DNA of 64,000 bases, taken from positions 1,569,413-1,633,412 of the forward strand of contig NZ_AP014510.1 of NCBI RefSeq assembly GCF_000828675.1, given 5' to 3'. The translations under genes were made by a program, and so were the position numbers. The notes beneath the pieces are model-generated. The model made no database searches and was not told where the DNA came from. It saw only the letters and a program-made list of their open reading frames with translations. This DNA is from Thermotoga profunda AZM34c06 (GTDB taxonomy: Bacteria > Thermotogota > Thermotogae > Thermotogales > DSM-5069). This document shows, piece after piece, positions 11,265 through 33,196 of the stretch; positions within the stretch are counted from its first letter, which is position 1; each line of letters starts with the position of its first letter.

Positions 11265-11451
11265 AAAGAAAATCTACCGAGTTCCTTATCTTGCTCTATT
11301 CAAAGGATTTGTGCGGTATCCGATACTTAGATACAACTAAGTTCTAAATCAATGATTAGAAGATGATTTTTCTATAAAATTTATCTCAAATATACTCATA
11401 GCAAATATTCGGTTTGTTTGTTATATTTTTCACTTTCGTATAATATATAAT
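11265..11451. other. AT-rich gap after ispD, ending in a promoter
   Basis: No gene is visible here. A weak inverted repeat (ACTTAG with CTAAGT, 11325-11342) has no T-run and is not a convincing terminator. At the right edge, TATAAT occurs twice (11439-11444 and 11446-11451), with TTGTTT at 11414-11419 nineteen bases before the first. This looks like a promoter reading into the following foldable stretch. Confidence 0.5.
11414..11451 (+). promoter_or_regulatory. Promoter of the orphan RNA region
   Basis: Two consensus -10 hexamers TATAAT lie in tandem at 11439 and 11446. TTGTTT (11414) is a fair -35 at 19 bases from the first. Transcription would start near 11452-11458, at the left arm of a long closing stem. 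Confidence 0.5.
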
Positions 11452-11640
11452 AGACAAGCTTGTCGGGCAGATCTGTCCTGGAACGACTGTGTAAATTGGG
11501 GTTGGTCTAATCTCTTGGGACCTTGGTCCATCGATCTGGCGTGATCAATCGGTTTGTGAAAGGCAAGTCATTGTGGCTTGTTTGGTAAAGATCATCTATC
11601 TTGATCCTTTGAAAGAAATTATATTGCTTTCAGACTTCCA
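11452..11640 (+). ncRNA. Candidate structured non-coding RNA, family not recognised
   Basis: This stretch is clearly richer in G+C than the AT-rich sequence on both sides and has no open frame of note. GACAAGCTTGTC (11453-11464) can pair in two steps with CTTGTT (11577-11582) and GGCAAG (11562-11567), making a closing stem of about 12 pairs with one bulge. Inside are GGGCA-GATC-TGTCC (11465-11478) and GGAC-CTTG-GTCC (11518-11529), the latter with a CUUG tetraloop. A promoter lies directly upstream, and the next terminator is at 11844. I looked for RNase P, SRP and T-box signatures and found none. A 6S-like RNA is possible but unproven. The 3' end is uncertain. Confidence 0.4.
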
Positions 11641-11843
11641 TATAAAAAGATCTCGGTAAAGTTTCGTAGGACAAAATTCGAACAAGATATGAAAACTGAA
11701 AAAGCACCAGAAACCTTGTGGGTTATCTTTTTGAATTCTTCTCTTATTCATTTGATATTTTCTTAAATTTTCTACTTTTCAAAGATAATACTTGAATTTT
11801 TTCTCAGTGATTTTTTAGTTAGAAATAGCAAGTACTGGAGAAT

Positions 11844-11876
11844 AAGGCGGAGATTGACTCCGCCTTTTGTGTTTTG
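11844..11876 (+). terminator. Intrinsic terminator upstream of the liv operon
   Basis: A perfect 9-base-pair stem (AAGGCGGAG with CTCCGCCTT) and a 5-base loop are followed by TTGTGTTTTG. No coding gene precedes it for almost 600 bases, so it probably ends the orphan transcript that starts near 11452. Confidence 0.75.
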
Positions 11877-11892
11877 TCTGTAAATTCAAATC

Positions 11893-11923
11893 TTGACGGA
11901 TGCTCGATTCTATGTGATATAAT
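11893..11923 (+). promoter_or_regulatory. Promoter of the liv operon
   Basis: TTGACG (11893-11898) is followed after 19 bases by TATAAT (11918-11923), and the -10 has an upstream TG (TGATATAAT). The expected start near 11930 leaves a leader of about 45 bases that holds a short hairpin (ACCTGA with TCAGGT, 11932-11948) and the ribosome site. Confidence 0.75.
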
Positions 11924-20213: not shown

Positions 20214-20567
20214 GGGGGCGAACGGTTTCGACGGGTTTGAGATCCCCCGGGAAGCGAGTCGAGGTCTCCGCCACCTCGTTAAAAAGGTGGAATAACAAAT
20301 AAGTGCCAACGAAGAACTTGCACTTGCTGCTTAGTAGATAAGCAGCCGTTCCTACCGAGTCTGACTGGTGCTCGGATAGGAGCGTGAGATAACCAGTCTA
20401 TCACTGGAGGATCTGCCCTTCGTCCTCTGGTGAGAATTTCAGGAGGGATATAGCCCACAAAACCTGCCTGTGGGTGTTGTGGGCCGAAATCAAAACGCAG
20501 GCTGCACTCGGAGATGCCCGGGGGTACTCATTCTCGGACGGGGGTTCGATTCCCCCCGCCTCCACCA
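20214..20567 (+). ncRNA. ssrA: Transfer-messenger RNA (tmRNA)
   Basis: tmRNA with SmpB frees stalled ribosomes and tags the unfinished protein for proteolysis. The 5' end GGGGGCG pairs with CGCCTCC near the 3' end (one G-U pair), followed by ACCA. The universal GGTTTCGACGGG follows the 5' acceptor strand, and the T-arm sequence GGGTTCGATTCCCCC precedes the 3' acceptor strand. The tag frame is at 20305-20334 and reads ANEELALAA, ending in a double TAG. The tag ends in ALAA, as needed for recognition by proteases such as ClpXP. The mature 3' end lies only three bases from the stop of the convergent permease gene. Confidence 0.96.
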
Positions 20568-32935: not shown

Positions 32936-33011
32936 GGTGGAGCCGATGGGACTTGAACCCACGACCTCTACCGTGCCATGGTAGCGCTCTCCCAAGCTGA
33001 GCTACGGCCCC
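32935..33011 (-). tRNA. tRNA-Ala (anticodon GGC)
   Basis: The minus strand gives a full cloverleaf: acceptor GGGGCCG with CGGCTCC (one G-U pair), D-arm GCTC/GAGC, anticodon stem CTACC/GGTAG with loop ATGGCAC, T-arm GTGGG-TTCAAGT-CCCAT, discriminator A and an encoded CCA. It is last in a Val-Phe-Ala cluster. Confidence 0.95.
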
Positions 33012-33036
33012 ATTTTACCTACCTTCAACAAAAAAC

Positions 33037-33112
33037 TGGTGGCCAGGGGCGGAATCGAACCGTCGACACCTGGATTTTCAGTCCAGTGCTCTACCAACTG
33101 AGCTACCTGGCC
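33037..33112 (-). tRNA. tRNA-Phe (anticodon GAA)
   Basis: The minus strand gives acceptor GGCCAGG with CCTGGCC, D-arm GCTC/GAGC, anticodon stem CTGGA/TCCAG with loop CTGAAAA, variable loop GTGTC, and T-arm GACGG-TTCGATT-CCGCC with one mismatch, followed by ACCA encoded in the DNA. Confidence 0.95.
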
Positions 33113-33121
33113 ACTCTCCTT

Positions 33122-33196
33122 TGGTGGGTGCGGCAGGACTCGAACCTACGACCTTCTGCTCGTAAGGCAGACGCTCTTCCTCTGAGCTACGCACCC
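33122..33196 (-). tRNA. tRNA-Val (anticodon TAC)
   Basis: The minus strand gives acceptor GGGTGCG with CGCACCC, D-arm GCTC/GAGC, anticodon stem TCTGC/GCAGA with loop CTTACGA, and T-arm GTAGG-TTCGAGT-CCTGC, followed by ACCA. The anticodon UAC reads valine codons. It is the first gene of the cluster after the promoter. Confidence 0.94.

Follow-up and report, generated by a model that had tools for sequence, protein, structure and literature searches.

What lies in the long gap between ispD and livK of Thermotoga profunda AZM34c06, and is it transcribed in its own right? The gap belongs to the window analyzed here, a 64,000-nucleotide stretch of contig NZ_AP014510.1 (positions 1,569,413 to 1,633,412). 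An earlier note, made from the letters alone, had described it as an orphan transcription unit with a foldable, G+C-richer core and no gene.

The gap between ispD and livK

Positions 11265-11923 contain no convincing coding gene and are flanked by ispD (PF01128, E 1e-40) and by a gene for a periplasmic binding protein of the livK type (PF13458, E 2e-58), in agreement with the reported absence of a gene. The tandem TATAAT boxes were found at 11439-11444 and 11446-11451, the G+C fraction of the island was 0.45-0.49 at 11450-11599 compared with 0.21-0.34 over most of the surrounding gap, and the terminator announced at 11844 is a 9-pair structure (11844-11866). In the region scanned, terminator-like sites numbered two, as compared with 0.5 in shuffled sequences. 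The sequence GGGCA-GATC-TGTCC was likewise recovered and is part of the conserved unit.

The structured core fared less well, as the folding of the region was no better than that of its shuffles (z of -0.19 for 156 nt and +0.10 for 429 nt). Nor is the 12-pair long-range stem conserved, because the orthologous ispD-livK locus of a relative (genome G003), which keeps 11327-11517, is homologous only over that interval. The stem arm at 11453-11464 had no comparable downstream partner in five related copies; on its own it is a perfect palindrome (GACAAGCTTGTC). The proposed tetraloop hairpin GGAC-CTTG-GTCC (GGAC-CUUG-GUCC in the RNA) sits at the edge of the conserved block or past it, and G003 does not share it. 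The gene-less unit itself is real, the stem and tetraloop do not define it, and its conserved parts fall partly outside the 11414-11876 interval first drawn around it. By eye, we also discarded a stem between ATTGG and CTAAT inside the conserved core, since copies with CTACC do not compensate.

The earlier note had been unable to assign an RNA family, and our Rfam search of the gap unit also gave no match. For 6S RNA (RF00013), which had been left as a candidate, there was no hit at the gathering threshold or at E ≤ 5. The unit shares with 6S RNA the idea of a gene-less structured transcript, but it occurs in 21 copies and has no long rod with a central bubble, so that a 6S-like RNA is unsupported; T-box and other Rfam families were set aside for want of a match. 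Elsewhere in the window, Rfam matches marked a tmRNA gene and three tRNA genes (20214-20567 and 32938-33196).

A family of putative paralogous RNA loci

A first search of relatives returned significant short matches to 11418-11518 in two genomes, and the same search within the genome of the window (G000) gave small matches near 11491-11519. With a sequence-only covariance model built from copies chosen by hand, for which calibration is rough and borderline hits are not countable, 21 copies were detected in G000, all with E ≤ 3e-9. Copies were also present in six to seven related genomes (G001, G002, G003, G007, G008, G009, and G010), including nine in G003, while the other genomes of the order yielded weak hits only. 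Thirteen putative ncRNAs have been reported in T. maritima (PMC3636130); the genome group tentatively assigned to that species had no copy by the covariance model. Our literature search found no Thermotogales repeat or sRNA of such kind. Judging by its sequence, the conserved unit at 11327-11518 represents an undescribed non-coding RNA gene that is present at least 21 times in G000, and these paralogous loci in one genome make up a putative sibling sRNA family. With its conserved promoter, its multiple copies, and its orthologous loci, the orphan non-coding transcription unit of the earlier note is well supported.

The order of elements is common to the family. In the consensus, the 18-bp motif TTAGNNTNAACTAAGTTC is followed 110 bp later by an invariant CGTA within CGTATANTATATNNTGG and by a presumed start at GG, after which come two self-complementary stretches, the core CGTAcATTGGsATAGGTCTAATCTsTTGG (shared by copies as TTGGsATAGGTCTAATCT), and a locus-specific tail. 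In the window copy (Table 1), the presumed RNA start is at about 11453, and the homology with G003 spans exactly the upstream motif, promoter, start, dyads, and core. The second dyad has counterparts in GGACA-GATC-TGTCT of the G003 ortholog and GTACA-GATT-TGTAT of another G003 copy (G003b). The terminator scan found a terminator within 700 nt downstream of 11 of the 21 G000 copies and none for the other 10. The copies other than that of the window adjoin unrelated genes, and several are opposed by convergent genes.

Table 1. Elements of the RNA unit in the window copy (window coordinates).
Element	Position	Strand	Remarks
Upstream motif TTAGATACAACTAAGTTC, dyad CTTAG-N6-CTAAG, candidate activator site	11327..11344	+	110 bp before CGTA; left edge of G003 homology
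Weak -35-like TTGTTA	11418..11423	+	Seen by eye in many copies; position family-dependent, weakly conserved
CGTATAATATATAATAG, -10/discriminator region of the family promoter	11437..11453	+	CGTA invariant in aligned copies
First dyad GACAAGCTTGTC, presumed RNA 5' end	11453..11464	+	Palindrome center 20-23 nt past CGTA in most of 26 non-redundant copies
Second dyad/hairpin GGGCA-GATC-TGTCC	11465..11478	+	Counterparts in G003 copies; palindromes here far above shuffles
Conserved RNA core GTAAATTGGGGTTGGTCTAATCTCTTGG	11491..11518	+	GTCTA motif in nearly all copies; missing from sigma-operon leaders
Variable 3' tail, unconserved	11519..11843	+	G003 homology stops at 11517; tails differ among copies
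Intrinsic terminator	11844..11866	+	Terminator scan

Between the start and the core, the mean longest strict palindrome in the 26 non-redundant copies was 9.7 nt, as compared with 4.6 ± 0.35 nt in dinucleotide shuffles and 4.2-4.7 nt in control regions alongside. The first palindrome keeps its position in most copies and varies in sequence (GGCGCC, AAGCTT, AGCGCT, and GGAGCGCTCC, with CTGCAG in G006). The excess over shuffles was larger for strict palindromes than for hairpins with a loop, a bias that could point to a function at the DNA level. In many copies of the g3 group, the 5' end pairs with a stretch located approximately 100-130 nt downstream, with matched, compensating differences in three of them (L139, L078, and L149). 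The dyads may serve RNA hairpins, RNA dimers, or DNA-bound dimers. At one locus (L172, G002:C1:827281), a promoter copy precedes two long perfect palindromes, TTACCCGGGTAA and ATGTGCATGCACAT, with a tRNA-like sequence soon after.

The copies differ in age. Several loci are common to different species by gene neighborhood (ispD-livK, groEL, cutA, rsmD, a peptidase gene, and a hexapeptide-transferase gene), indicating that these copies were retained. About a dozen near-identical G000 copies, whose similarity extends from about -115 to +82 and ends there, are by this likeness recent. At the L114 locus, the aligned flanks are separated by 30-42 bp in G001 and G003 and by approximately 530-550 bp, including the RNA unit, in G000; as read from this alignment, L114 is an insertion relative to empty sites in two relatives, and some copies have spread recently. 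A second locus tried for an empty site was not syntenic. The recent copies L062, L063, L110, and L114 are mosaic, their upstream, middle, and tail portions matching different partners as if recombining, and two G003 copies (L069 and L074) share a 3' tail that includes an apparent rsmD end, the flank having seemingly been copied along. IS605-type tnpB-like or right-end remnants were noticed near the tails of L113 and L116 and upstream of L111. An IS605/omega-RNA reading was rejected because the ends of these remnants, which occur near a few copies, did not by eye correspond to those of the unit, and carriage by a virus because no viral contig matched.

The shared promoter and a sigma-like operon

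Across G000, just 23 sites carry the promoter pattern CGTATNNTATATNNTGG, namely the 21 RNA loci, the promoter of one operon encoding a sigma-like protein, and a truncated duplicate of the latter; of these, only the copy in the window has a mismatch to the pattern. The upstream motif reached a score of 12 or more out of 15 in 39 promoters, five of which belong to sigma operons or their duplicates, and in every one of them it is located at -110 (34 promoters) or -109 (5 promoters) from CGTA, whereas shuffled sequences reached a score of 12 in 11 of 2760 trials. The sequence between this motif and CGTA is poorly conserved, and most g3 copies are without the motif. The RNA loci thus have a common promoter, and a shared regulator is proposed.

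A search with the upstream motif led to two places without the RNA core, both with the same motif and promoter. Behind the first is an operon coding for a DUF1659 protein (PF07872, E 2e-9), a DUF2922 protein (PF11148, E 2e-15), an 81-aa protein with no Pfam match, and a 124-aa sigma-like protein. The truncated duplicate (G000:C1:830859, L151 and L153), approximately 16.6 kb away from the complete operon, carries the promoter and the DUF1659 gene. G001, G002, and G008 (two copies) also have this operon behind the same promoter and -110 motif, and a similar -10 region precedes the diverged sigma operons of G006 and G007.

The G000 sigma-like protein itself had no Pfam sigma hit, and no region 4 family was reported for member 1 of its family. 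Among 12 homologs, Sigma70_r2 (PF04542) was identified in 10 (best E 9e-8) and sigma70-ECF in 11. The AlphaFold model had a pLDDT of 78, and the top Foldseek hits were nearly all sigma domain 2, with weak E-values (best 0.14, none ≤ 0.001). In B. subtilis, the sigma-2 domain resides in RsoA and the sigma-4 domain in SigO (PMC8103513). From the shared promoter, the sigma-2 matches, and the comparison with RsoA, we infer that the protein is a region-2-only sigma factor that would be autoregulated. The sequence shared by the promoters is also what suggests a link between this factor and the RNA loci. No sigma-like gene was detected in G003 (94% complete), though nine RNA copies are there, and sigma-like genes occur in genomes without detected RNA copies (G004, G005, and others outside the family). 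The literature search returned almost nothing on the DUF1659-DUF2922 sigma operon.

In G006, four loci (L174, L175, L176, and L181) have the same or a near-identical -10 region with other dyads (GGACTGCAGTCC) and no GTCTA core, and three of them then carry GACCAAC..GTTGGTC. L176 precedes an apparent flgB-flgC-fliE operon and L181 a chemotaxis-receptor-like gene.

Alternative explanations and proposed function

The recent spread raises the question of whether the unit is mainly a MITE-like mobile repeat in which both end motifs are transposition ends and transcription is incidental. Short non-autonomous repeats of this kind are also repeated and recently inserted at new sites, as are the dozen near-identical copies and L114, which sits in an insertion of approximately 500 bp, and by eye a TTAGA-like stretch is common to the two ends in opposite orientation. 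However, the unit has a complete promoter, RNA, and terminator. The end similarity is loose, the flanks are too diverged, and neither a target-site duplication nor a clean terminal inverted repeat was seen. When the left end was used to look for an autonomous partner, nothing came up apart from promoters of the family, the sigma operon, and weak matches of the kind expected by chance. The promoter of the sigma operon carries the left motif at the same -110 spacing but has no right end, and old copies are kept at loci common to species. We consider a mainly mobile repeat unlikely. The strict palindromes at a fixed position past CGTA and the fixed 110-bp spacing could instead reflect a DNA-level site, where motifs and dyads bind a chromosome-organizing or regulatory protein rather than being parts of an RNA. 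Yet the dyad sequences vary between copies, as does the promoter-core distance, terminators follow 11 of the 21 copies, and many g3 copies show the long-range 5'-3' pairing, which together make this explanation improbable.

Being upstream of livK on the same strand, the unit might also be a livK leader or riboswitch, but a terminator lies in between, and the multi-locus distribution, with copies next to unrelated or convergent genes, contradicts this reading and leaves it very little credence. Just as hard to sustain is the translation of leaderless small peptides from the ATG in TATAATGGA: ATGG is found at the presumed start in many copies and in some the frame continues for at least 20 codons without a stop, but the window copy has ATAG, L067 has ACGG, and others have TTGG, and the differences in start-core spacing are not multiples of three bases. 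This candidate was rejected since neither start nor frame is conserved.

We favor, as the probable explanation, that 11327-11866 is a member of a sibling non-coding RNA family belonging to the regulon of an autoregulated sigma factor that, like RsoA of the SigO-RsoA pair, has region 2 only. Aided by a factor at the -110 site, this sigma would act on the CGTATA -10 promoter to switch on both its own operon and all the RNA genes. Each RNA would begin with a short 5' dyad or hairpin, followed by the exposed core AUUGGSAUAGGUCUAAUCU, which would bind a shared protein partner, while tail and terminator vary. A genome search for an antisense target of the core with up to three mismatches recovered the family itself and, beyond it, only a handful of weak matches in coding sequence. 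As no extended complement of the core occurs elsewhere in the genome, long antisense pairing is unlikely, and the lack of an antisense target favors a protein-binding role; that the core binds a common protein is suggested with low confidence. In this organism, the whole RNA family is probably controlled by a dedicated switch that amplifies itself. More tentatively, these may be spreading sRNA genes, each equipped with its promoter and often with a terminator, that account for nearly the entire regulon of an autoregulated region-2-only sigma, and their self-complementary 5' ends may let the RNAs dimerize or self-sort. If true, it would be unusual for a sigma factor to have nearly all of its recognizable genomic promoters in front of non-coding RNAs. 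The locus offers an entry point to an RNA family without an Rfam entry and to the candidate regulon of the DUF1659-DUF2922 sigma operon, and the set of copies opens three questions: what a region-2-only sigma needs at -110, how sRNA genes multiply, and why the 5' palindromes are perfect.

The proposed regulator resembles the SigO-RsoA (YvrI-YvrHa) system of Bacillus subtilis in being a small protein with sigma region 2 only that would, as judged here from the shared promoter, be autoregulated (PMC8103513). In contrast to that system, the operon of the candidate adds DUF1659 and DUF2922 genes, and its regulon, with a -110 upstream motif, apparently consists mostly of RNA genes. On the RNA side, the nearest functional model is provided by the sibling families LhrC of Listeria (PMC4132741) and the CiaR-dependent csRNAs of streptococci (PMC3091779), which likewise comprise paralogous intergenic RNA genes with a short conserved stretch and with a shared regulator, proposed in the case of our family. 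Our family differs from both in its putative sigma-like regulator, in a conserved stretch without a known target, and in copies apparently spread by insertion; it numbers 21 copies as compared with five csRNAs (PMC3091779).
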